Source: a virus
DNA length: 26,333 nucleotides
IMG/VR virus record: IMGVR_UViG_3300031862_000546
Location: 1 to 26,333 of that record
Direction: 5' to 3' (one strand)
Of the stretch, positions 5,318-25,186 are shown one piece after another; within the stretch, counting starts at the first letter, position 1, and every line of letters begins with the position of its first letter. The translations under genes and the position numbers were made by a program. The notes below the pieces were generated by a model. The model was not told the DNA's origin. It saw only the letters and a program-made list of their open reading frames with translations, and did no database searches.

Positions 5318-6103
5318 CTACCGTTGGTTTGCATTGATGAAATTCAGCAATAAGTTAGTGCCTTCTTCATTCAGAATGATTTCAAACCATTTGGCTCTAT
5401 TTCTCTTCAATGCATGGTTATAGAATATGTCTTGAAGTTCTGTCAAAGGGGTGTTTCCATGGCTAATTGGCAAGGCTTGCTGATATACTTTTGATTCATT
5501 CCTTTCCCCTTTTATGATTATGTACTCTCCAGTATGGTGATTGCCTCTTTTAATATGAGCATTTGTTCTGAGCGTGTCCTCAATCGTGATGTCAAGTTCG
5601 CGACATTTGTCGTAAAGGTTGTAACGTCTAATTTCGTTCTTTCCTGCAAAAATTTGAGAAATTCTAATCTGAGCTATTAATCCGTAAAACCAACTGGGAC
5701 CCCTATTCTGCTTTAGAAGGCACTTTAACTCTTCAGAATACAATTTAGGGTTTCTTAGAAAATCGGTTTTGGAAGGTACTGGTATTTTCTTCATAGAAGC
5801 TAAAAAGAAGACAAAGTCTCCAGGGTATAATTTCGCCAGCATCCAATCCCTTGGGCCTTCTCCGAAAGTGAACTCGGCGAATTCAGGGTCATTGTGTACC
5901 TCAGTATCTACTGAGTAACCAAGCTGTTCAAGGATTTCGCATGTTCCAGGAACCGAATCACGAAGTTCTTTGTAAACTGCCCCTTCTCCCATGGCCGGTA
6001 TGGGAACAAAAATGAAAGAGTTATCTTCGAAAACCGGTAACACCATCAATAGTGGGCGAGTGTTGGAAACATTCACTCCAACATGCATTACTGCGCTTTT
6101 CAA
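5318..6103 (-). CDS. Nmad3-like protein (putative nucleotide-modification-associated domain)
   Basis: A 261-aa protein beginning with TTG (or ATG at residue 6). Its N-terminal half resembles the Nmad3 family as I recall it: an opening VMHVGVNVSNTRPLL, PVFEDNSFIFVPIP, an acidic HNDPEFAEFTFGEGP segment, and LYPGDFVFFLASM. Nmad domains were predicted by comparative genomics to act with enzymes that alter or recognise modified bases in phage and host DNA; no activity is shown by this sequence. The second half includes FYGLIAQIRISQIF and a HIKRGNHHTGEYIIIKG segment that may be functional. It sits with the next gene (14 nt gap) as a cassette inside the head/neck operon, unlike a structural gene. 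Alternative: an unrelated viral alpha/beta protein. Confidence 0.5.
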   Translation of the reverse strand: MKSAVMHVGVNVSNTRPLLMVLPVFEDNSFIFVPIPAMGEGAVYKELRDSVPGTCEILEQLGYSVDTEVHNDPEFAEFTFGEGPRDWMLAKLYPGDFVFFLASMKKIPVPSKTDFLRNPKLYSEELKCLLKQNRGPSWFYGLIAQIRISQIFAGKNEIRRYNLYDKCRELDITIEDTLRTNAHIKRGNHHTGEYIIIKGERNESKVYQQALPISHGNTPLTELQDIFYNHALKRNRAKWFEIILNEEGTNLLLNFINANQR

Positions 6104-6117
6104 ATTTTCATACGACC

Positions 6118-6723
6118 TTACGAGAATCTGCGGCAGTCTTTTCTAAATTTGCATTCATCACCAAATCTACAAGTCTTATTGCCTTTGTCTTTTTTGCTTA
6201 TTTCTTCTATACACTCGTGAGTAATGGGCGTTTTCTTGCCAATAAGGAAATGGTTCAATATCTCTTCTGTTTGAGTTTCATTAACGAACGGGTTCTTTTT
6301 GAGTTTAGGACGGTCAAAATTGAACCCAAACAGGGGTTTAACTAATTTAGAATCTTCAAAGGAATAGATGTATGTTGGTCCTTTTACACAGATATGTCCC
6401 TCGATGGGGAAGTTTTCTCTTACGTCGATGTATCCTACAATGAACTGTTTAGTGCCAGTTCCAAATTTCTTTTCCAACTCTTTGTTTACTTCCTCATTCT
6501 TGCAAGTCGTTATCAGAAAGAGATAGCGTAGCTTCTTTTCTGCGAATTTCTGTATGTTGCTCTGGTAACATTCAGCGCAAAGGTTCTCTGCGCCGATTTC
6601 TAAATGTGGTTCAGTTTTATGGTCATGTCCCTGTTCGTTTAGTACGTCTCTTATAGGCAACTTTGAAGAGGGAGAATGGTAAAAATATTGAACCATCCCT
6701 TTCTCTTGTGGAATCCTGGCCAT
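6118..6723 (-). CDS. Uncharacterised cysteine-containing protein, partner of the Nmad3-like gene
   Basis: About 201 aa from the ATG at 6723, preceded by AGAGG; an upstream TTG at 6762 would add 13 residues. It has a CAEC pair near residue 50, a strand-rich middle (RYLFLITTCKNEEV; QFIVGYIDVRENFPIEGHIC; GPTYIYSFEDSKLV), and a Cys-rich end (TCRFGDECKFRKDCRRF) that could bind zinc in a CCCH-like way. The strand-rich middle is somewhat reminiscent of small base-binding domains such as EVE/ASCH, but I cannot claim homology. It precedes the Nmad3-like gene by 14 nt, so the two are probably co-expressed. A TTTAAAT at 6784-6790 could be their own promoter. Confidence 0.6.
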   Translation of the reverse strand: MARIPQEKGMVQYFYHSPSSKLPIRDVLNEQGHDHKTEPHLEIGAENLCAECYQSNIQKFAEKKLRYLFLITTCKNEEVNKELEKKFGTGTKQFIVGYIDVRENFPIEGHICVKGPTYIYSFEDSKLVKPLFGFNFDRPKLKKNPFVNETQTEEILNHFLIGKKTPITHECIEEISKKDKGNKTCRFGDECKFRKDCRRFS

Positions 6724-6783
6724 CCTGAATCCTCTGTTATAAGCTATGCAAATAGTAACCAAATTCTGTTCAGAAGCTTTGTC

Positions 6784-11887: not shown

Positions 11888-13015
11888 ATGATTTTATCTT
11901 TGGAGGTAAAAGGTCTGTCGAATGAATCCTCCGTAGTGTGGTCCATAGAACCGCACACTCAAGCCAAGCATGAGATATTAGGGAACTACCTAAAAGCGTG
12001 GTTCCCTATCCTGTCAAGCTGGGCAGGAAGAATAATCTATTTGGACGGTTTTGCTGGGCCCGGTGTTTACTCGGGTGGTGAAGATGGGTCTCCAGTGATA
12101 GCGTTGCAAACTGCTGTAGAGCACACATTGCGAATGCGCTTCAAGGAAATAGTGTTCTATTTTATCGAGAAAGACCCGGATCGTGCAAAGATGCTTACTG
12201 AAGTTCTTAAGAAACGCTTTCCAAACCTTCCAAAGAATATAACGTACAGAGTACAAGGTGCAGAATTTGCCCCAACGCTTGAACAAGTGTTAACTGAGCT
12301 TGAAAAGAGAGAGGCAAAGCTTGCTCCGACATTCGCTTTCTTGGACCCCTTTGGTTTTTCAGGTCTTCCCATAAAACTAATTGGGCGAATGATGAGTTAT
12401 GATAGTTGTGAAGTGTTAATCACGTTTATGGCTGGATTCGTGAAGCGTTTCTTAGATGAATTGCGTGCTCCTGTTTTGAATGAATTGTTTGCATCCGAAG
12501 AATGGAAGCAAGCTTGCGATATGGGTGATCCAGATAAGCGCTTGAGATTTCTCTTAGATTTGTATGAAAGGCAACTGAGGAATGTTGGAGGGGCCAAGTA
12601 TGTAAGAAGCTTCGGGATGATTGGTCCTCAAAATCAGCTTATCTATTATCTGGTTTATGGAACTAAGCATTTGAGAGGGCTTGAAGTCATGAAGGAAGCA
12701 ATGTGTAAAGTGGACAGGAGAGGAACCTACACATTTTCCGATTTTACGGATGTTGGTCAGACATACATGATAGACTATACCGAGGAGCCTCATTGGATTC
12801 CTAAGGCAGCGGAGATGGTCTATAATGAGTTTAAAGGAAAATCGGTTTCAGAAGATGCGATCCATCAGTTCGTAATTGCAAGCACTCCTTTCATCTATCG
12901 CAAGTCTGTTTTAGAGTATTTAGAAAAGGATAGCCCGCCAAAGATAATCAAAGTGACTGAGAGGAAAAAGAAATTTAGTTATCCTAAAGGATGCGTAATA
13001 ACTTTTTGCAAATAA
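11888..13015 (+). CDS. tcmP: Three-Cys-motif partner protein (TcmP family)
   Basis: The 375-aa protein matches the TcmP family: HTQAKHEILGNYLKAWFPIL near residue 23, then IIYLDGFAGPGVYSGGEDGS (residues 49-68) and FIEKD at 92. FLDPFGFSGLP follows at 151-161. The DGFAGPG loop and the DPFG motif are as expected for a Rossmann methyltransferase-like fold, with motif I and motif IV positions; catalysis has not been shown. TcmP genes are known to occur with a three-Cys partner, thought radical-SAM-like. Here the two convergent neighbours carry CxxxCxxC motifs, which fits. The C-terminal 90 residues may be a DNA- or partner-binding helical domain. The ATG start is used, but a GTG at codon 17 is possible. 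It ends 20 bp from the first radical SAM gene's stop. Confidence 0.8.
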   Translation: MILSLEVKGLSNESSVVWSIEPHTQAKHEILGNYLKAWFPILSSWAGRIIYLDGFAGPGVYSGGEDGSPVIALQTAVEHTLRMRFKEIVFYFIEKDPDRAKMLTEVLKKRFPNLPKNITYRVQGAEFAPTLEQVLTELEKREAKLAPTFAFLDPFGFSGLPIKLIGRMMSYDSCEVLITFMAGFVKRFLDELRAPVLNELFASEEWKQACDMGDPDKRLRFLLDLYERQLRNVGGAKYVRSFGMIGPQNQLIYYLVYGTKHLRGLEVMKEAMCKVDRRGTYTFSDFTDVGQTYMIDYTEEPHWIPKAAEMVYNEFKGKSVSEDAIHQFVIASTPFIYRKSVLEYLEKDSPPKIIKVTERKKKFSYPKGCVITFCK

Positions 13016-13035
13016 CTTTTTAGATGAGGGAGATA

Positions 13036-14109
13036 TTAAGTCTGCAAGGCAGTCTTACCATAACAGCTACAGACTCGAGGCGTGTAACGCAATTTTAAAG
13101 CATCCCACATTTCCACTGTTTCTTTGCATATAGATACTCGGGACAGAGGAAAGTTTGCTGAATCGAGTTTCTTGTAGAAAAACTCGTATATTTCCTTCCT
13201 CTGCTCAAAAGATAACTTTTTGCCCCAACCAGTGTCCTCTTTGAAGAAACGTGTCCAAGACATATCTGCGCATGCTTCTTTAGCATACTTTATTGTTTTC
13301 CAGAGCCCTCTTGGCGTGCCAAGAATAATTCTGTTAGGATTCAGGTTGACCAGTATTTGGTCAACCAATTCACCATAATGCAGCTGCCAATCAGGGACCG
13401 GAAAAATAGGATCTATGCGTATCCTCGTGTCATACCCAGCAGTGCTAACCTGTTTGGCAGCTTCAATTCTTTTCTCTGGAGGAGGAGCAGCTTTCTCCCA
13501 AAGCTTGGCGACTGCAGGAGCGTTAATGCTCCAACCGCATATCACCTGTTTTCTCGGGTGGTCTAACAGAAACTCTATGTTTCTCGCTCCAAATTTCGTG
13601 AGGAGGTATATCTTGTGCTTACTCTGTTGCTCAAATCTTTCAACTATTTGAGCCATTATCTGGGGATTCATAAGAGCATCCGACAACTCACCTGCGTTGA
13701 AAATTGATGGTGAACGGATTTTAGTGAAGGCTTCATCCAAGGCTTCCAGGATATGGTCAATCCTCACATATTGAGGGCGCATTTTGCCGCGAGTTGTTCC
13801 TCGTAAGTAGCAATAGCTGCAGTCCAGTGGGCAACCATACGCCCATCTTAATTCCCAGAACATTCCGCATGCTATGCTTTCAGGGGTTTTGTGAAAAGGC
13901 ACAACAATGCGGTTTCCATTCCAAGCAGGCTCTATCAGTTCATAAGACTCGCTTATCTCTGGGTGTTTTATTTTTTGCATGGCTTCTGGCTTTATGAACT
14001 CGGTTAACTTCTGCATGTCTTTTGTAGCTTTCTCTCTCTTCTGGCGTTTTATTGTTCGCCAAGCCTTTAATGCTGCTTCCCTATGCTTTTTCTTGTCTTT
14101 GGCAGTCAT
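13036..14109 (-). CDS. SPL-like radical SAM protein (first copy)
   Basis: A 357-aa protein from the ATG at 14109. The radical SAM iron-sulfur motif is CPLDCSYC (C93, C97, C100). Later blocks are NAGELSDALM, HKIYLLTKF, RIRIDPIFPVPDWQLHY, RIILGTPRGLW and a late CKETVEMWD followed by Cys-rich RVCSCYG. This is the layout of spore-photoproduct-lyase-like radical SAM enzymes, which bind a 4Fe-4S cluster and cleave SAM. I reject the longer TTG start at 14148 because the TATA box 14135-14143 would be inside it. The N-terminal 50 residues are basic (KDKKKHREAALKAWRTIKRQ), perhaps nucleic-acid-contacting. It is a paralogue of the next gene and faces the TcmP gene; substrate unknown. Confidence 0.78.
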   Translation of the reverse strand: MTAKDKKKHREAALKAWRTIKRQKREKATKDMQKLTEFIKPEAMQKIKHPEISESYELIEPAWNGNRIVVPFHKTPESIACGMFWELRWAYGCPLDCSYCYLRGTTRGKMRPQYVRIDHILEALDEAFTKIRSPSIFNAGELSDALMNPQIMAQIVERFEQQSKHKIYLLTKFGARNIEFLLDHPRKQVICGWSINAPAVAKLWEKAAPPPEKRIEAAKQVSTAGYDTRIRIDPIFPVPDWQLHYGELVDQILVNLNPNRIILGTPRGLWKTIKYAKEACADMSWTRFFKEDTGWGKKLSFEQRKEIYEFFYKKLDSANFPLSRVSICKETVEMWDALKLRYTPRVCSCYGKTALQT

Positions 14110-14134
14110 ACTGCATCCGTTTCCTACCCAGAGT

Positions 14135-14143
14135 ATTATATAA
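14135..14143 (-). promoter_or_regulatory. TATA box of the first SPL-like gene
   Basis: Minus-strand TTATATAAT is centred at 14139; a start site 26 nt downstream (about 14113) lies just before the ATG at 14109, so the transcript would be nearly leaderless. This also decides the start codon. Confidence 0.6.
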
Positions 14144-14200
14144 CACAAATTAACATTTTACTAATTGGATACTCGGTTTCGAGATTTTCATTAGGCAAAG

Positions 14201-15166
14201 CTAAGGTAAACAATTACACTGAATACTCTTGTAGTCCATGCCAAGTTTGGTCCACATTTCAATAGTTTCTTTGCAAAGAGCAACCTTCGAGTAATTGTAC
14301 TTAGATCTCAGATATTCCAATACGGTTTTATAGATCAAGAATCGAGTGTTGAAAGCAATTTTCTTTCCCCAGTTGGAAGTTTCTGTCATAAAAATTGTCC
14401 ATGATTTGTCTCTTGCATTATTGATGGTGCTTTGAAGACCTCTTAAAGAGCCCAGAGTGATTCTTTCCGGAACAAACTTGCTGAATATTGAGTCTATGAT
14501 ACTTAGATATTGTTTTTGCCAATTTTCAACGGGAACTATTGGATCAATACGGATGCGTGTCTCGTAGCCTGCTTCGCTCAAGAGTTTTGCAGCGTTCAGT
14601 CTTTTTTCGACAGAAGGTGCTCTCTCCCATTTTCTTGCGACTGATGGTGCGTTTAGGCTAAAACTAACTATAACTTGACTGTGGTTTTTCATTTTGAGAA
14701 GATTTTTTATGATGGTGGATTTAGTCAAGAATAGGACTTTGTGTTGCTCTTGTTCTTCAAAAAGTGGTATGACGAATCTTGAAAATGGTTTATTGGTGCT
14801 TTCAGTCATTAGAGAATCAGCCAGCTCTCCAGTGTTTAGTAGCTCCCTTGAGTGTCCGTCGTTCTCAAAGAAGCTTTCCAAATGCTTCTGGATTTTACAG
14901 TAGTCTTTGACGATAGGCTTTGTCCTTGTACTGAGAAGCCGTAGTGTTCCCTTGAGAAAGCACCATGCACAATCATAAGGACAACCGTAAGCCCATTTCA
15001 GTTCCAGAAAATGTGGACATACAACGTCTGTCAGTTTCTGGGGAATCGGCGTCTTGTCAAATCTTTTTATTATCGATCCGTCTCCTACTTTCTGGACCAG
15101 TACTTGTTCTGATCCATCGAGGAGAGTATAGCTGTGAAACTTGACTTCTGGCAGACGTTCACTCAT
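14201..15166 (-). CDS. SPL-like radical SAM protein (second copy)
   Basis: A 321-aa protein starting with ATG after GGTGAAGGAGAA. The iron-sulfur motif is CPYDCAWC (C62, C66, C69), preceded by FLELKWAYG. It shares with the neighbouring copy NTGELADSLM, RIRIDPIVPVENWQKQY, RITLGSLRGL and CKETIEMW, then a Cys-rich end (QCNCLP). The two are thus paralogues, but this one lacks the basic N-terminal extension. Both retain the cluster Cys and the TGELxDxLM block, so neither looks dead. Two copies could act on different sites, or act as a pair with TcmP. The role is unproven; DNA/RNA repair or radical-based modification are both possible. Confidence 0.78.
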   Translation of the reverse strand: MSERLPEVKFHSYTLLDGSEQVLVQKVGDGSIIKRFDKTPIPQKLTDVVCPHFLELKWAYGCPYDCAWCFLKGTLRLLSTRTKPIVKDYCKIQKHLESFFENDGHSRELLNTGELADSLMTESTNKPFSRFVIPLFEEQEQHKVLFLTKSTIIKNLLKMKNHSQVIVSFSLNAPSVARKWERAPSVEKRLNAAKLLSEAGYETRIRIDPIVPVENWQKQYLSIIDSIFSKFVPERITLGSLRGLQSTINNARDKSWTIFMTETSNWGKKIAFNTRFLIYKTVLEYLRSKYNYSKVALCKETIEMWTKLGMDYKSIQCNCLP

Positions 15167-17603: not shown

Positions 17604-18047
17604 ATGAAAACCCTTAAAATTTCAGACGATGTTCACCAGAGGCTCACATCTCTTCTTGGCGAGTTAATGGCTCAAACAAGCAAGATGCAGACATATCAAG
17701 ACGCCATAGAAGCCATGCTCACCCGTTCAGTTATACTGCCCACAGAAGTGCTTGCAGAGATTGAAAACTTTATAGAAGAAAACAAGCGCTTAGGCTTCAC
17801 GACGAGAGAAGAGTTCATACGTGATGCAGCAAGATGGCGACTGAAGTTTCTCAGAGAAGAATCCGAATACGTGGAAATTCCAAGAGACAAGTATGAAAAA
17901 CTTGAGGCTGCTGTCAAAGAAATGAACACACCTTATCACAGTGCTTCAGACTTCGTTCACACACAGATCGATGAAGTGCTGGAAAAATATGACAAGTGGC
18001 TTGAAGAAAAAGACGCACTGGAGAAAAAACAACGGAAAAGAGTGTGA
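17604..18047 (+). CDS. RHH-type regulatory protein preceding the restriction genes
   Basis: The 147-aa protein starts MKTLKISDDVHQRLTSLLGE, an RHH-like strand plus helix, with helix QTYQDAIEAMLTR. A second RHH-like unit follows (EIENFIEENKRLGFTTREEF, then IRDAARWRLKFLR). The C-terminal part has a strand VEIPRDKYEKLE and a lysine/glutamate-rich coiled helix. It lies 17 nt before hsdR on the same strand, so it is likely co-transcribed and could control the restriction operon. An antitoxin-like or accessory role is an alternative. Confidence 0.65.
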   Translation: MKTLKISDDVHQRLTSLLGELMAQTSKMQTYQDAIEAMLTRSVILPTEVLAEIENFIEENKRLGFTTREEFIRDAARWRLKFLREESEYVEIPRDKYEKLEAAVKEMNTPYHSASDFVHTQIDEVLEKYDKWLEEKDALEKKQRKRV

Positions 18048-18064
18048 CCGAGTCATGCTAATTT

Positions 18065-20899
18065 GTGGAGCTGTGGTTTAACGTGGTAAAAGATTCCTCA
18101 GAGTGGCTCACGCGCAAGGAAAAAATTGATATTCTTTTGAGACAAGCGGGTTGGGACATGAGGGATTCTACGCAAGTTGTTTTGGAAGTCGATACGAAGC
18201 AGTCCGATTTTAGAGCGAGAAATTATAAGACTGTTTCGGAGACTCTCAGGGCTGAGGGCGAAAGCGCCTATGCTGATTATTTGCTTCTTGATGGTTCTGG
18301 AGAGGCGTTGGCGATTATTGAGGCTAAAAGGACATCTAAGGACCCGATTCTTGGTCAGAAACAAGCAGAGGGCTATGCAGACGATATTAAGAAGCAGACT
18401 GAGAAGGATGTTTTTATCTTTCTTACGAATGGTTATGAGATTTGGTTTTGGAATCGACCTTATGAGAACCCGCGTATGGTGAAGGGCTTCCACTGTCGGG
18501 AAGCTTTGGAAAGGATTAGATTTCAGAATTATTCGAAGAAGGATTTCTATGATGTTCCGATTAGGAAAGAAATTGTTGACAGACCTTATCAGATTGAGGC
18601 TGTTAAGAGGGTTTTAGAGGGAATCGAGAAGGGTAAGCGTAAGTTTTTGATCGTGCAAGCTACGGGCACGGGCAAGACAAGGGTTGCTATGGCTATTATT
18701 GATGTGCTGTTGCGTGCGAACCGTGCGCAGAAGGTTTTGTTTCTGGCAGATCGGAAGGCGTTGAGGGACCAGGCTTTTAGTGATGGGTTTAAGGTGTTCT
18801 TTCCGAATGAATCTAAGATTAAGGTTTTTTCTGGTGCGGTAGATAAGACTCCGAGGTTGTTTGCTTCGACGATTCAGACGTTTATGGAGTGTTATCAGGA
18901 GTTTTCCACTGGCGATTTTGATGTCATTATTTCGGATGAGTGTCACAGGTCGATTTATAATAAATGGAAGGATGTTTTCACGTATTTTGACGCTGTCGAA
19001 ATTGGTTTGACAGCAACTCCAGCTGAGTTGGTTGAAAGGGATACGTTCAGGTTCTTTGAATGTGAAGACAGTATTCCCACTGTTCTTTATACATATGACG
19101 AGGCGGTTGAAGATGGTTGGCTGGCTCCTTTTCGATTGTACAAGGCTAAGACGCATTTTCAGATTGCTGGAATTAAGCCGGAGGATGTGCCTGGTGAAGT
19201 GATGAAGGAGCTTATGGAGAAGGGTGTTGAGCCTGAAGAGGTGAATTTTGAAGGCACGGACATTGAGAAGAAGGTTGTTGTAATTGGAACGAATGAGGCT
19301 ATTGTTAAGGAGTTTATAGAGAACTGTGTGAGGGACATGACGGGCACTTTGCCTGCTAAGTCGATATTTTTTGCGATGACTAAGAAGCATGCTAAGCGTT
19401 TGTGGGAAGCGTTTGAGAGGCTTTATCCAGAGTATAAGGGTAAGCTTGCGAGGATTATTGTTTCTGAGGATGAGAGAGCTCAGGAATCTTTGAAGGAGTT
19501 CAAAATCGAAAGTTTGCCGAGGGTGGCAATATCGGTCGACATGCTGGATACTGGAGTGGATATGCCCGAAGTTTGTAACTTGGTGTTTGCTAAGCCTGTG
19601 TTCTCGAAGATTAGGTTTTGGCAAATGATTGGCAGAGGTTCGAGGAATGATGAAGCTTGCAAGTTTAAGGAGTGGCTGCCTAATGGAAAGAAGGAAGAGT
19701 ACCTGATTTTTGACTGTTGGAGTGTCTTTGACTGGTTTGACATTCATCCTAAAGGAAAAGAGGAGGCACCATCTGAAGCAGTCCCAGCGAAAATATTCTT
19801 AGTTAGAATACGTTTGCTTGATCATTTTCTTAAAATTGGCAATAAGGCTCGTGCTGAGGAAGTGAAAAAGAAGCTAATGGAAGACATTGCGGCGCTTCCG
19901 AAGGAATCTATTTCTGTTAGAGAGCATCTGAGAGATATTGAATTGGCATCTTCTCCTAAGCTGTGGGACAGGGTTGGACTTGATCCTCTGGATTTCTTGA
20001 AGACCAAGATTACACCATTGATGAAGTATAAGCAGAATGTGGAGATTAATGAGGCGTCTTTTGCATTGAAGGTTGAGCAGCTTAGTTTGGCTTTGCTGGC
20101 TGGCAATCAGGCTGAGGTTGATAGGCTAAGAGAAGCTATCGGAGAGACTTTGAACTGTTTGCCTACCACGATACGTGAGGTTAAGGAGAAAGAAGCGTTG
20201 CTTGATAAGGCTTTGAGCAAGTCGTTCTGGCAAGGTATCACTTGTGAGGATGCTCAGATGATGTTAAGGGAATTTGGTCCCTTGATGAAATATAAATTGC
20301 CAGAACCGAGGCCTACAATTGTTCTTGATATCGATGATGTTGTGGAGCGGAGAGAGCTAATTGAGTATGGTCCGCCTCTCACTCCTCTTTCAGATTACGT
20401 TGAGAATTATAGAGCCAAGGTAGAGAGAAAGATAAAGAAGATTGCCGAGGAACATCCGACGATTCTGAAGATTAAGCGTGATGAAGTCATTACAGAAGAG
20501 GACTTGCGGAATCTTGAGAAGACATTGAACAGTCCAGACTTGTACGTAACGGAGGAAGTCCTTCAGAAAATTTACAAACAGCCAAAGGGAACGTTGGTGC
20601 AGTTTATTAAGAAAATGTTAGGATTGTATGAGTTTCCTGATCCGCGGAAGAAGATAGAGGAAGCTTTTAAGACGTTTATGATTGAGAAGAATTATTTGAA
20701 CGCTGATCAGGTGAACTTTTTGAGAACCGTTCAGACTGTCTTCGCGATGAAGCATCACATTGAGTACAGTGATTTGTTTGAGCCGCCTTTCACGAGTTTT
20801 GGACCAAAGGCGCCCATTCCCTTATTTCAGAAGGATGAGTTAACGGAAGTTCTTTCGATGTGTCAGAATTTGGAGCAGGAGGTGTTTAAGAATGCTTGA
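18065..20899 (+). CDS. hsdR: Type I restriction enzyme, R (motor-nuclease) subunit
   Basis: The 944-aa chain starts with GTG (a GTG at 18083 is possible). It has an N-terminal PD-(D/E)xK nuclease with D71 and E86-A-K88 (YADYLLLD; AIIEAKR). The SF2 translocase follows: Walker A ATGTGKT at 199-205, DECH at 291-294, GLTATPA at 314-320, and a C-terminal motor half with motif VI QMIGRGSRND. The final third is helical and binds the methylase. HsdR drives ATP-dependent DNA translocation and cleavage of unmodified DNA in an R2M2S complex. It overlaps hsdM by 8 nt. Length is typical for compact HsdR. The G/T-rich coding strand differs from the neighbouring genes (see findings). Confidence 0.93.
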   Translation: MELWFNVVKDSSEWLTRKEKIDILLRQAGWDMRDSTQVVLEVDTKQSDFRARNYKTVSETLRAEGESAYADYLLLDGSGEALAIIEAKRTSKDPILGQKQAEGYADDIKKQTEKDVFIFLTNGYEIWFWNRPYENPRMVKGFHCREALERIRFQNYSKKDFYDVPIRKEIVDRPYQIEAVKRVLEGIEKGKRKFLIVQATGTGKTRVAMAIIDVLLRANRAQKVLFLADRKALRDQAFSDGFKVFFPNESKIKVFSGAVDKTPRLFASTIQTFMECYQEFSTGDFDVIISDECHRSIYNKWKDVFTYFDAVEIGLTATPAELVERDTFRFFECEDSIPTVLYTYDEAVEDGWLAPFRLYKAKTHFQIAGIKPEDVPGEVMKELMEKGVEPEEVNFEGTDIEKKVVVIGTNEAIVKEFIENCVRDMTGTLPAKSIFFAMTKKHAKRLWEAFERLYPEYKGKLARIIVSEDERAQESLKEFKIESLPRVAISVDMLDTGVDMPEVCNLVFAKPVFSKIRFWQMIGRGSRNDEACKFKEWLPNGKKEEYLIFDCWSVFDWFDIHPKGKEEAPSEAVPAKIFLVRIRLLDHFLKIGNKARAEEVKKKLMEDIAALPKESISVREHLRDIELASSPKLWDRVGLDPLDFLKTKITPLMKYKQNVEINEASFALKVEQLSLALLAGNQAEVDRLREAIGETLNCLPTTIREVKEKEALLDKALSKSFWQGITCEDAQMMLREFGPLMKYKLPEPRPTIVLDIDDVVERRELIEYGPPLTPLSDYVENYRAKVERKIKKIAEEHPTILKIKRDEVITEEDLRNLEKTLNSPDLYVTEEVLQKIYKQPKGTLVQFIKKMLGLYEFPDPRKKIEEAFKTFMIEKNYLNADQVNFLRTVQTVFAMKHHIEYSDLFEPPFTSFGPKAPIPLFQKDELTEVLSMCQNLEQEVFKNA

Positions 20900-22373
20900 T
20901 CCTGAGATAAAGTCCAAGATTGAGAAGCTTTGGAACATGTTTTGGGCTGGCGGTTTGGCGAATCCATTGACTGCCATTGAACAGATGTCCTACTTGATTT
21001 TTATGAAGAGGCTTGAAGACCTTGATAATGTTCATCGCATGCGGGCAGAAGCAGTCAAGGAGACGTATAAATCGGTCTTTGAAGGTCACGAGAATTGTAG
21101 GTGGTCGAATTGGAAGCATATGAATGCTGAGGCGATGTTTAAGCATGTTAGCGAGGTTGTGTTTCCGTTTATCAAGAATTTGCATAACGGTGAGGATGTA
21201 GTTTATGCGCAGTATATGCACGATGCTACTTTCATGATTCCTAAGGCTTCGCTCTTGCAGGAAGCTGTTTCGATTATTGACGATATCAAGATTGGAGAGA
21301 GACCAGACATTCAGGGAGACATTTACGAACATTTGCTTGGTGAGCTGAAGACTGCAGGGAAGAATGGGCAGTTTAGGACGCCTCGCCATATTATTCGTAT
21401 GATGATTGAGCTCGTTGATCCAGAGATTGGGCAGAAGATTTGCGACCCTGCCTGCGGAACTGGCGGCTTCCTAATTGCCGCATATCAACACATACTAAAG
21501 AAGTACACAACTCCAGATATGGTGAAGTTCGACCCTGACGGCACGCCACACAATCTGATAGGGGATAAGATAGTAAGGAAAGAACACTGGGAGCTTTTAT
21601 GGAAAGAAACATTCTATGGGTTCGATTTTGATATCACGATGATACGCATTGCACTCATGAACATGATTCTGCACGGCATAAAAGAACCAAACATCAGACA
21701 GATTGACACACTTTCCAAGAGATTTGAGCAAAAACCGCAGTACGATATTGTCCTTGCGAACCCACCTTTTGCCGGCTACGTCGACAGAGCTGATATACAT
21801 GATAATTTCAAGGTAGACACAACCAAGACGGAGCTTTTGTTTCTGGAACTCTTCTATAATCTTCTGACAATCGGAGGAAAAGGAGCAGTAATTGTTCCTA
21901 ACGGTGTATTGTTTGGTTCTTCAAACGCGCACGTAAAAGCAAGACAAACGATTCTTGAAAAATGCGACCTCCAAGCAGTTATATCTATGCCTTCCGGAGT
22001 GTTCAAGCCCTACTCAGGTGTTGGTACGGCAATCCTAATCTTCGTCAAGGGCGGAAAGACCGAGAAAGTCTGGTTTTACGATATGAAATTCGACGGTTTT
22101 TCCCTTGATGAAAAACGTGATTTCATCGACGGCAAGGGAGACATTCCTGACATAATTGAGAAATTCAAGAAGGGACAAGTTGAATCGACTCAGAGCATTC
22201 TTGTGCCCTTTGAGATGATAAAGAAAAACGATTACAACCTGTCGATTTCACGATACAAGCAGGTTGAGCGTGAAGAAGTCGAGTTTGAAGAACCTGAAGT
22301 CTTGATCGAAAACGTCTCTCGATTAGAAGAAGAGATTGCGAAGGAATTGCAAGATTTGAAAGCGATGATATGA
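20892..22373 (+). CDS. hsdM: Type I restriction enzyme, M (adenine-N6 methyltransferase) subunit
   Basis: The 493-aa protein has the N-terminal helical domain of HsdM (KLWNMFWAGGLANPLTAIEQ), the GxFxTPRHI-type entry (GQFRTPRHIIRMMIELV), SAM-binding motif I DPACGTGGFL (185-194) and catalytic NPPF (290-293). It methylates adenine in the site given by HsdS, protecting host or element DNA. Directly followed by hsdS, whose ATG abuts the hsdM stop. Nothing is missing. Base use changes sharply just after motif I. Confidence 0.95.
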   Translation: MLDPEIKSKIEKLWNMFWAGGLANPLTAIEQMSYLIFMKRLEDLDNVHRMRAEAVKETYKSVFEGHENCRWSNWKHMNAEAMFKHVSEVVFPFIKNLHNGEDVVYAQYMHDATFMIPKASLLQEAVSIIDDIKIGERPDIQGDIYEHLLGELKTAGKNGQFRTPRHIIRMMIELVDPEIGQKICDPACGTGGFLIAAYQHILKKYTTPDMVKFDPDGTPHNLIGDKIVRKEHWELLWKETFYGFDFDITMIRIALMNMILHGIKEPNIRQIDTLSKRFEQKPQYDIVLANPPFAGYVDRADIHDNFKVDTTKTELLFLELFYNLLTIGGKGAVIVPNGVLFGSSNAHVKARQTILEKCDLQAVISMPSGVFKPYSGVGTAILIFVKGGKTEKVWFYDMKFDGFSLDEKRDFIDGKGDIPDIIEKFKKGQVESTQSILVPFEMIKKNDYNLSISRYKQVEREEVEFEEPEVLIENVSRLEEEIAKELQDLKAMI

Positions 22374-23651
22374 ATGCACGGCGCCAAGCTACCATACGGC
22401 TGGAAACTCAGTGCTCTTGGGGAAGTCATTTTGGGTAAACCGCAATATGGACTAAATGCACGGTCTTCAACAAAAAAGAATGAGATTGTATATCTTCGCA
22501 TCAGTGACATAACAGACGAAGGGGAACTCAAAACTGAAGGCCTTCACTATATTGATGCGAATTCTACGGAAGTCGGTAAGTACGAACTTCATGAAAATGA
22601 TTTTTTGATAGCGCGCAGTGGTTCTGTCGGCCGAGTTTATCTTCATCATGATTTGGGAAAGCCTTCAGTCTTTGCATCCTATCTGATTAGATTTAGGCTG
22701 GATTCAAGTAAAGTTCTCCCGAAATTCGTATTCTACTGGGGATTAAGTCCCCATTTCAAAAGAGAGATTGGGGCAAGGAGGAAAGTAGTAGCGCAACCCA
22801 ACATCAATGCAAAGGATTACTGCAGATTTATGCTCCTTGTCCCACCCCTCGAAATACAGCAAAGAATTGCCTCAGTCTTAGAGAAGGCTCACAAACTTAA
22901 GCAGAAGCGCAAAGAAGCAAATCAACTATCATTGAGAATTATTAGATCTATTTTTCTGAAGATGTTTGGTCATGGAATACCGCAGAACAAAATTGATGAT
23001 GTCGTAGAATTCGTTTCCAGCGGGTCTACACCATTAGGCGGCGAGAAAACTTATGTTGCAGACGGTATTGTTTTCATCAGAAGCCAAAATGTACTCATGA
23101 ACGAATTGAAATTAGATGATGTCGCACACATTACAGAACAGGTTCATAATCAAATGAGAAGAACATGGGTCAAAGATGGCGACGTTCTACTCAACATAAC
23201 TGGCGCTTCAATGGGTCGAGTGGCTTTCTACAGAGGACCAGACGACAAAGCGAATGTGAATCAACATGTCTGTATCATAAGGCTGAATAAGCACAAAGCC
23301 CTACCGGAATACATTTCGTACTATCTCTCGAGCTCAAATGCCCAAAAGCAAATTTGGACTATCCAAGCCGGTGCCTCAAGACAAGCTCTAAACTTTGAGC
23401 AAGTGAAATCACTTAGCCTATATCTACCACCTCTCAGCGAACAGCAAAAATTCGCAACCATCGTCAGAACAACACAGGCTCTGCGAGGCAAGCAAACTCA
23501 ATCCGCCATGCAGATTGATGAATTATTCCACTCTTTGATGCACAAAGCCTTCAGAGGAGAACTTGTCGCAGAGATCAAAAAACTCTCTGAAAAGAAGATT
23601 ACAAGCCCACGGACTCTGGGCTCTTACCTTGATCGCAATGTGCTATCGTAA
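22374..23651 (+). CDS. hsdS: Type I restriction enzyme, S (specificity) subunit
   Basis: The 425-aa protein has two target-recognition domains (about 1-155 and 200-360), each followed by a conserved helical region: PPLEIQQRIASVLEKAHKLK after the first and PPLSEQQKFATIVRTTQALR after the second. Typical motifs are KYELHENDFLIARSGSVGRV and VKDGDVLLNITGASMGRVAF. HsdS sets the bipartite sequence recognised by the methylase and nuclease. Complete by length and domain order. Confidence 0.92.
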   Translation: MHGAKLPYGWKLSALGEVILGKPQYGLNARSSTKKNEIVYLRISDITDEGELKTEGLHYIDANSTEVGKYELHENDFLIARSGSVGRVYLHHDLGKPSVFASYLIRFRLDSSKVLPKFVFYWGLSPHFKREIGARRKVVAQPNINAKDYCRFMLLVPPLEIQQRIASVLEKAHKLKQKRKEANQLSLRIIRSIFLKMFGHGIPQNKIDDVVEFVSSGSTPLGGEKTYVADGIVFIRSQNVLMNELKLDDVAHITEQVHNQMRRTWVKDGDVLLNITGASMGRVAFYRGPDDKANVNQHVCIIRLNKHKALPEYISYYLSSSNAQKQIWTIQAGASRQALNFEQVKSLSLYLPPLSEQQKFATIVRTTQALRGKQTQSAMQIDELFHSLMHKAFRGELVAEIKKLSEKKITSPRTLGSYLDRNVLS

Positions 23652-23872: not shown

Positions 23873-23932
23873 ACGAACAACAGAGAAGGGAACATTAAAA
23901 TCTTCCAGCTCTAATCTTCTTTGGGAATAAGA

Positions 23933-25186
23933 ATGCCTGAAATCGTGAGTGACTGTTCAAGTCTGGAACCTGCTATCGCACCCTTCATTGATGCCGCAAA
24001 CACTACAAAATGGAAACATGCATTAAACATCATTTACCTAAACGGTGCAGTACTCGAAACTGTCGAGGGCACTGGAATACCATGCCTCATAAGCCAAACA
24101 GGCTCAGCCGAGGCAACAGAAGAAAGTATCGACCTCCTCGTTGGAAAATCACAAACAAAACTCATGCCCCTCATAATTGATGCCGCAAAACTGTTTCTAC
24201 CAAAACTGCTGTACACTGCAAAGAAAGCAAGCGCCGAAACAACAGAAAACCCAGACAATACAGAAGCCGCCCTTGTCGCAACCAAAGTAGTAATGGAAAC
24301 TATGCCAGAACTCGAAAAACTTCAGAAAGAAGCACCAAAACTCTTACTCAAAGGTGCCTTCTCCATACCAGACCTCATCGCAGCAGGCCTGTTCAAAACA
24401 CTAACAGAAATGAGAACTAACCAAACAAGCTGCGGAATCAAAGAAAAAGACTACGAAAACATGATAAACGCCCTTTCAAGACTGGACGTTATCGAACCAA
24501 TACTCCAAGCTTCCATATGCCCAAAATGTACCAACTATCAGCTCACAATCTCCCCATGCCCGACCGCCAAACTCACATGCCCAAAATGTGGAGAAAATTG
24601 GGCAACCCAAATGATCTACATGTTTAAAGGCCAACTCAGCAAAATCAAAGCAGAAAACCAAGACCTGCCCCTCTTCATATCCAACTACCTCAAATTCAAA
24701 ACAAGCCCAAGCACTATGTTTGGCGAAATAAGGATTTATCCGAACGCCCAAGTCAAAAACACAACAACAAGTAAACAAGAAACCGTCGAAGTTGACGTAT
24801 ACATACCCGACTTCAAAGTAGGCATCGAATGCAAAGCATACTCAGACCCAACATCGCCAATGACAACCCAACGACTAAACGGAATGACAGGAGACATCAT
24901 AGAAAAACACGCGAAGAAATACATCAACATCGGCATAGAATACATCTTCCTTGCAACAAACCTGCCCGAAAACCAAGCACAAAAGTTAGAAAATGCACTG
25001 AAAACTTCAATGGAAAACCAAAACATCAAAGTAAAAACGCTAAAGGTCATCCCAAGAAAAATTGATACACTCCTGCAATTCCTAAACGGATTGGCTACTC
25101 AGATCACAAACAAAATCGCAAGTTTCCCAGAAGAAAACACGCCAAAGATTGACAGCTCACAGAAAGAAGAGGGTTTTCAGCTTTAG
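23933..25186 (+). CDS. PD-(D/E)xK nuclease-like protein with zinc ribbon
   Basis: About 417 aa from the ATG at 23933 (a TTG at 23921 would add four residues). The N-terminal half is helical with no recognised family. A zinc ribbon follows: C196, C199 (CPKC) and C216, C219 (CPKC). Then comes a nuclease core: VEVDVYIPDFKVGIECKAYS with D288 and E299-x-K301, then a helix TGDIIEKHAKKYINIG and the strand IEYIFLATN. This is the restriction-endonuclease-like fold with a recognisable D...ExK. Long helical lead plus zinc ribbon plus nuclease is an unfamiliar arrangement to me. Location next to the type I system and in the element's early-gene end suggests a defence, anti-host or DNA-processing role. 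The nuclease fold is inferred from motif spacing. Confidence 0.68.
   Translation: MPEIVSDCSSLEPAIAPFIDAANTTKWKHALNIIYLNGAVLETVEGTGIPCLISQTGSAEATEESIDLLVGKSQTKLMPLIIDAAKLFLPKLLYTAKKASAETTENPDNTEAALVATKVVMETMPELEKLQKEAPKLLLKGAFSIPDLIAAGLFKTLTEMRTNQTSCGIKEKDYENMINALSRLDVIEPILQASICPKCTNYQLTISPCPTAKLTCPKCGENWATQMIYMFKGQLSKIKAENQDLPLFISNYLKFKTSPSTMFGEIRIYPNAQVKNTTTSKQETVEVDVYIPDFKVGIECKAYSDPTSPMTTQRLNGMTGDIIEKHAKKYINIGIEYIFLATNLPENQAQKLENALKTSMENQNIKVKTLKVIPRKIDTLLQFLNGLATQITNKIASFPEENTPKIDSSQKEEGFQL

Follow-up and report, generated by a model that had tools for sequence, protein, structure and literature searches.

TcmP with twin SPL-like radical SAM genes in an archaeal viral contig: a version of the TcmP/DUF5131 pair and a candidate nucleic-acid modification module

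The closest described relatives of the locus studied here are the TcmP/DUF5131 pairs, in which TcmP stands beside a cysteine-rich protein resembling radical S-adenosylmethionine (SAM) enzymes (DUF5131, PF07505). PADLOC contains them as the candidates PDC-M30 and PDC-M41, with TcmP as component A and DUF5131 as component B. The two genes are convergent in several cases, such as Gordonia phage Easley, where they lie between the immunity repressor and the integrase, and actinobacterial plasmids; they are on the same strand in Pseudomonas pCAR1.2. PDC-M30 has been predicted in 32 strains of P. aeruginosa, of which 68.8% were resistant; this is a correlation only (PMC10855318). In an expression table of another paper, a TcmP gene of S. 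meliloti is listed beside the Hna defence gene (PMC12445080). No function or chemistry for the pair was found in our searches of an open-access library, and one may be in print elsewhere. Haloarchaeal plasmids of Halopiger, Natribaculum, and Haloarcula likewise carry one TcmP gene with two radical SAM genes. Here, we describe a 26,333-nucleotide stretch of viral DNA (IMG/VR record IMGVR_UViG_3300031862_000546; hereafter the window), in which TcmP is accompanied by two paralogues resembling spore photoproduct lyase (SPL).

The window has matches to portal, major head, and tail proteins and is a viral contig of uncultured archaea. The gene trio is arranged as follows.

11888..13015, plus strand: TcmP, 375 amino acids, with a predicted RlmJ-like SAM-dependent methyltransferase core and a C-terminal winged-helix-like region.
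13036..14148, minus strand: radical SAM A, 370 amino acids counted from the listed TTG start, in the A clade by tree.
14201..15166, minus strand: radical SAM B, 321 amino acids, in the B clade by tree.

A is convergent with TcmP across a gap of 20 bp, and B lies 52 bp beyond A. The same trio was found in two further viral contigs, where A is 99% and 94% identical, and in a contig binned in a Ca. Bathyarchaeota A05DMB-2 metagenome-assembled genome (MAG), where A is 96% identical (L014 in our numbering of loci). In a blastn comparison, 8.9 kb of L014 align collinearly with the window at 94% identity; therefore, L014 is itself viral or proviral. A 47.7-kb viral contig represents a second viral lineage with the module (L191, 5111-7802): it carries a ParB-like open reading frame (ORF) recognized by eye, a single SPL-like radical SAM gene whose product shares 40% identity with A, and a gene for a short TcmP. 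A tblastn search with A found nothing in the phage collection; in plasmids it found nine records, 24-32% identical and annotated for the most part as SPL.

A and B appear to be intact SPL-like radical SAM paralogues. They are 41% identical over 308 columns, and both translations contain the CxxxCxxC motif, NAGEL (A) or TGEL (B), RIRIDP, and CKETxEMW. Both exceed the cut-off of 27 bits for the Pfam SPL family PF20903, with 65.8 bits for A and 55.7 for B. Against the general radical SAM family PF04055 (cut-off 29.5), B reaches 30.6 bits and A, at 23.7, falls below. The SPL equivalog TIGR04070 is matched with 80.3 and 73.7 bits, far below its cut-off of 400. Among solved families, SPL is the nearest in sequence (E 1.3e-20) and also in fold: the AlphaFold2 model of A (mean predicted local distance difference test (pLDDT) score 84.0) matched SPL with a Z score of 24.0, followed by the peptide maturase SuiB (17.2) and viperin-like enzymes (16.9). 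RlmN (16.0), TYW1 (14.2), and other radical SAM enzymes (14-17) were more distant.

The putative cluster-binding residues of A are located as follows.

13810..13833, minus strand: CxxxCxxC of radical SAM A (C106, C110, and C113), the expected [4Fe-4S] ligands, each cysteine present in 84 of the 84 aligned members with a letter there.

Eight residues are invariant across the SPL-like family in all rows that have a letter at the position (83-85 of 85 rows): C94, C106, C110, C113, C341, C360, C362, and E154; this conservation is partly due to the search patterns used to collect the members. Four of the cysteines are beyond the SPL set, and the family has a C-terminal CKE...CxC block. In SPL, Cys140 is the catalytic hydrogen donor. 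This residue (FEAACTSD in 4fhc) aligns with the family glutamate, E154, which is present in 85 of 85 members.

The window module is an SPL-like, twin, archaeal viral version of the known TcmP/DUF5131 pair. The TcmP family is the same, and the partners differ. There are two of them, with CX3CX2C in place of the CX6CX2C of the aligned DUF5131 proteins; they are about 70-120 amino acids longer and have extra invariant cysteines. Neither A nor B matched PADLOC at E 0.01 or PF07505 in the Pfam search, whereas DUF5131 control proteins matched PDC-M30B and PDC-M41B. The comparison of the SPL-like alignment with DUF5131 by hhalign gave a probability of 0.9, that is, no sequence-profile link, so that a kinship between the two families is suggested by motifs shared by eye and by their common position beside TcmP. 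The haloarchaeal radical SAM proteins differ as well: they are nearer to the PA0069/Rv2578c models and form a separate clade.

TcmP matched TIGR04474 with 203.8 bits (cut-off 53) and PDC-M30A (PDLC04567) with 209.1 bits (E 2.4e-62), a score with no PADLOC threshold set beside it. These results confirm the description in an earlier note on this DNA, which had recognized, with the motifs given above and below, a TcmP gene convergent with two SPL-like paralogues. The AlphaFold2 model (pLDDT 89.1) was closest to RlmJ, the 23S rRNA m6A2030 methyltransferase, with a Z score of 16.8 and a root-mean-square deviation of 3.3 over 209 aligned residues. Trm1 (14.4), Trm5 (14.1), and many further methyltransferases (13-14) followed. 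By sequence the relationships are weak. RlmJ was found at E 0.017, with an hhalign probability of 36, and Trm1 gave no Pfam match to TcmP (PF02005, E 0.01) and an hhalign probability of 0.8, with the DPFG stretch alone aligned; phmmer found no match to TcmP in the PDB. Two motifs of TcmP correspond to methyltransferase motifs I and IV.

12044..12064, plus strand: motif I, DGFAGPG, residues 53-59, aligned with YLDTHAGAGRY of RlmJ.
12344..12355, plus strand: motif IV, DPFG, residues 153-156, at the position of DPPY in RlmJ; Trm1 has DPFGSP.

TcmP and RlmJ are collinear at motif I, GSP, the motif II acid, and the aspartate of motif IV. In motif I, the aligned TcmP proteins keep D53 (88/89), G57 (83/89), and G59 (86/89); in motif IV, they keep D153 (92/92) and P154 (81/92). 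In RlmJ, methyl transfer requires D164 together with K18, Y4, and H6, while the cofactor is contacted by S100 and E118 (PMC3814359). The TcmP counterparts are D153 for D164, S68 for S100 (85/89), and E94 for E118 (70/91). K27 of TcmP, in the first helix of the model, is kept in 88 of 88 proteins; the sequence alignment does not put it on the catalytic K18, which is in helix 1 of RlmJ. The helical insert of RlmJ is mostly a gap in TcmP, which adds a C-terminal extension instead. The helix-strand order of the last 75 residues in the model fits a winged helix, and the Pfam GMT-wHTH family matches the corresponding region in two fused relatives (L022 and L077), whereas the Pfam search gave no GMT-wHTH match to the window TcmP. 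The model of TcmP is accordingly that of an RlmJ-like methyltransferase whose C-terminus resembles a winged helix.

To examine the pairing from the side of the radical SAM proteins, we scanned archaeal and bacterial genomes with the alignment of A and B and the patterns KET[VI]EMW and [MH]F[WL]EL[RK]WA. TcmP was adjacent at 47 of the 72 loci obtained and in the same ORF at eight, that is, at 55 of 72. The adjacent pairs are separated by a median of 6 bp, 36 on the same strand and 11 on opposite strands. Seventeen loci lack TcmP; five of them are flanked by 4.5 kb or more on each side (L024, L027, L031, L063, and L072), and in the remaining 12 the DNA ends within 1.8 kb. Among five viral SPL-like matches, L192 and L193 are likewise without TcmP in the DNA examined. 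Only six loci (L014-L019) have two radical SAM genes and 66 have one, which excludes an obligatory twin state; one of the six, L014, is a contig of the same virus type as the window.

The pairing was also examined from the side of TcmP. Matches to TIGR04474 were present in 38 of 392 genomes of the phylum of L033 (a Methanoperedens MAG), in 23 of 398 of the phylum of L014, and in 82 of 400 of the phylum of L023 (a Dehalococcoidia MAG). We examined every match in the first two phyla and 30 loci of the third, namely the best-scoring ones, with one locus passed over as the second match of a genome already represented. A radical-SAM-like neighbour was present at 39 of 40, 22 of 25, and 29 of 30 loci, respectively (90 of 95). 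The median gap was 6.5 bp, with 85 of 88 separate pairs within 300 bp and two fused. Apart from the fused two, 47 partners are SPL-like, haloarchaeal, short, or weak, and 35 are DUF5131; the match to the partner profile is weak in 16 of the 90. Of the 90 partners, 53 have CX3CX2C, 32 have CX6CX2C, and five have neither (L099, L103, L112, L125, and L177). Of the five loci without a partner, three are under the family cut-off (L134, L155, and L156) and one is shortened, probably at a contig end (L170). The sole unexplained exception is L154, which scores just over the TcmP cut-off (55.4 bits) and has no recognized radical SAM neighbour.

Radical SAM matches numbered 13-37 in each of six genomes of 2.4-4.2 Mb, about 1% of genes by our estimate; therefore, chance adjacency should account for a few per cent of pairs at most. 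The two sets of loci are not independent: L088, L089, L090, and L092 are in seed genomes or their like, seven TcmP-seeded loci are identical to radical-SAM-seeded ones, and L136 and L144 equal L061 and L021 in length and nearly equal them in score. In the surveyed archaea and bacteria, TcmP is almost never without a radical-SAM-like neighbour. The reverse does not hold for DUF5131, which is not obligately paired: in viruses, TcmP was absent from 40 of the 80 DUF5131 loci kept out of at least 585, each with at most 3 kb on either side.

The two functions are also found in single chains. Seven ORFs consist of TcmP followed by an SPL-like domain, and an eighth (L038) is cut at the contig start. 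In L148 and L103, TcmP is joined to weakly matching radical-SAM-like domains, that of L103 having neither cysteine motif. At L077 (6762-9689), a fusion of TcmP to an SPL-like domain that ends early is accompanied by a DUF5131 gene in the opposite orientation; one locus thus carries partners of two families.

On the TcmP tree (n = 92), four partner labels change 14 times, compared with a minimum of three and a mean of 27.8 after shuffling. The labels are clustered and have nonetheless been swapped repeatedly, and the radical enzyme is exchangeable. On the partner tree (n = 57), the haloarchaeal proteins and the DUF5131 proteins each form one clade (supports of 100 and 97 in the Shimodaira-Hasegawa-like approximate likelihood ratio test), and A and B fall into separate clades inside the SPL-like group (89 and 99). 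The B clade also takes in most of the single partners included. An A-type protein without B is beside TcmP at L021, where 16.9 kb were examined, and at L146, where the examined DNA is just 3.7 kb. Therefore, the window twins are old paralogues and not the product of a fresh tandem duplication. Both trees were made by a quick method and contain long branches. L019 (6048-10046) shows the gene run B, TcmP, A, TcmP, and the twin arrangement possibly arose from such a run by the loss of one TcmP.

These comparisons bear on much of what the earlier note had claimed. It gave two refuting outcomes, a lack of TcmP with SPL-like pairs elsewhere and a loss of SAM- or cluster-binding residues in homologues, and neither was observed: TcmP is adjacent or fused at 55 of 72 loci, and the cluster cysteines are kept throughout the aligned SPL-like members. 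The co-occurrence of TcmP with SPL-like pairs holds as regards the association, and is thin as regards strict twins. It had treated the twin state as the defining feature, which the predominance of single partners contradicts; twins recur in the haloarchaeal clade, separately from those of the window. It had also set the twins apart from the three-Cys-motif partner of TcmP, whereas the SPL-like proteins hold the very place that DUF5131/Gp37 holds beside bacterial TcmP.

Gene pairing, fusions, partner exchange, conserved residues, and predicted folds were computed directly, and we infer from them a catalytic activity, an order of steps, a substrate shared by the two enzymes, and a biological role. 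On homology and models, we tentatively regard the module as a nucleic-acid modification unit of radical SAM protein and TcmP, at slightly less than an even chance. The modification reading of the earlier note fits the predicted folds of TcmP and A. The radical SAM proteins, with a bound [4Fe-4S] cluster and SAM, would generate a 5'-deoxyadenosyl radical for a reaction on a base. TcmP, as an RlmJ-like amino-methyltransferase with a winged-helix-like part, would methylate the same or a neighbouring nucleotide. We prefer an order in which the radical step comes first and TcmP methylates the product, because TcmP is almost never partnerless while radical SAM partners occur without TcmP. Each type is also found as the sole radical SAM protein beside a TcmP, and A and B are therefore probably alternative or sequential radical enzymes. 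For the window virus, the modification would serve as a mark on its own nucleic acid, with protection from host restriction as the most plausible purpose. A part in defence or counter-defence, as raised in the earlier note, is possible.

As the substrate, DNA is slightly more likely than RNA, because of the SPL fold, the restriction-modification-like neighbours of two TcmP-less loci, and a viral gene overlap. As identified by eye and motif, HsdM/HsdS-like ORFs immediately precede L030, and a restriction-helicase-like ORF precedes L027. In the viral contig L192 (468-3396), the radical SAM ORF overlaps a DNA amino-methyltransferase-like ORF (TSPPY, DPFAGSG), with no TcmP within the 7.6 kb examined; its radical SAM protein has an inserted CxxC...CxxC knuckle and a CKE...CNC end.

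Several observations weigh against this proposal. All functional readings are drawn from homology and models. Motif IV of TcmP varies outside D153 (F155 45/92, G156 67/92) and is not DPPY. RlmJ leads the other methyltransferases by about 2.4 Z units, and both RlmJ and Trm1 are RNA enzymes. L192 is a single case, and DNA methyltransferases are frequent on phage contigs. Restriction-modification-like neighbours were seen in two of the five TcmP-less loci that have long flanks or resemble such loci, and housekeeping neighbours at L031, L051, L071, and L078. In a defence-island comparison of 135 of 210 picked neighbours, all from L015-L064 and with no control set, the neighbours showed no clear sign of defence, and no PADLOC family had more than four matches. 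The commonest Pfam family there was the dihydroorotate dehydrogenase iron-sulphur domain (5/135), probably from related Methanoperedens loci.

The strongest competitor, which we consider possible but doubtful, places the reaction on rRNA or tRNA: TcmP would methylate an exocyclic amine in the manner of RlmJ or Trm1 and the radical SAM protein would extend the base. The effect would be to shield translation from a nuclease or to change it in the course of infection. The joint synthesis of wyosine by Trm5 and TYW1 is comparable. The folds nearest to TcmP are indeed those of the RNA methyltransferases RlmJ, Trm1, and Trm5 (Z 16.8, 14.4, and 14.1), and DPFG is found in Trm1. However, RlmJ and Trm1 are not close to TcmP in sequence, and the fold of A is that of a DNA enzyme, SPL (Z 24), well ahead of RlmN and TYW1 (16.0 and 14.2). 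Moreover, an order with the methyltransferase first does not predict that TcmP scarcely occurs without a radical SAM protein.

It is unlikely that TcmP has ceased to be a methyltransferase and now acts as a winged-helix subunit that binds SAM and targets the radical SAM protein to its nucleic acid. Such a role would suit the variation of motif IV beyond D153 and the tight, at times covalent, tie between the two proteins. However, D153 is present in 92 of 92 proteins, and the counterparts of the SAM ligands of RlmJ are mostly kept. A repair module, in which the radical SAM protein would reverse a DNA lesion as SPL does and TcmP would find the lesion or remove a by-product, appears somewhat less probable still. 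SPL is the closest solved family by both sequence and fold. Nevertheless, the glutamate at the position of Cys140 in 85 of 85 members, the equivalog scores of 80.3 and 73.7 against a cut-off of 400, the patchy distribution, and the methyltransferase partner, which would be odd for repair, all speak against it; we therefore rejected the SPL-type thymine-dimer repair raised in the earlier note as the best reading. Along with that glutamate, the CKE...CxC block and the TcmP gene beside or fused to it separate this family from SPL, with which it shares the radical SAM fold and CxxxCxxC. Finally, action on a peptide or small molecule, as in radical SAM maturases that work with methyltransferases, is very improbable: SuiB and the nucleotide-acting viperin-like enzymes rank next among the folds of A (17.2 and 16.9), about 7 Z units below SPL, and precursor-peptide genes were not searched for.

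The earlier note had linked two other gene sets of the window to the module.

5318-6103: Nmad3-like gene (PF18754, 54.6 bits).
17604-23651: type I restriction-modification set (HsdR of 944 amino acids, HsdM, and HsdS) behind a small ORF; apparently complete.

The Nmad3-like gene, which had been called adjacent, lies about 5.8 kb from the TcmP module. The stretch at 5318-6762 contains this gene and a second, unassigned one. In blastn, the stretch at 5.3-6.8 kb had no alignment in the sister contigs L001, L002, or L014, all of which keep the module, and it therefore looks like variable cargo. The restriction-modification genes beyond 18042 had no alignment in L001, compared over 3.7 kb beyond that point; the sequence examined is too short for a verdict in L002 (0.5 kb) and in L014 (0.2 kb beyond 17301). 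Since the Nmad3 stretch does not align in three contigs and the restriction-modification genes do not in one, a functional link of these neighbours to the module is unsupported and was rejected. Further along the window, an ORF of 421 amino acids (23921-25186) has CxxC pairs and a DVYIPDFKVGIECK stretch, which we take to be reminiscent of a PD-(D/E)XK nuclease; it had no NCBIfam or PADLOC match.

A wider generalization is possible but doubtful. TcmP and its exchangeable radical-SAM-like families (SPL-like, haloarchaeal, DUF5131, short archaeal, and others) may form one widespread, unrecognized class of two-component nucleic-acid hypermodification systems, with which viruses, plasmids, and cells contend over restriction and anti-restriction. 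A new base would be made by any one of several radical enzymes and then finished or read by one conserved methyltransferase; the twins in two lineages would correspond to two radical steps.

TcmP/DUF5131 is widespread, and in PADLOC it is just a candidate defence system. The near-constant pairing, the exchangeable radical enzyme, and the fusions turn two orphan families into one testable two-enzyme hypothesis, for which the fused single-chain versions (L022, L026, and others) are practical proteins to purify. The predicted folds point to a modified base as the product to look for. If the proposal is true, bases made by radical SAM enzymes would be added to the chemistry of virus-host conflict.

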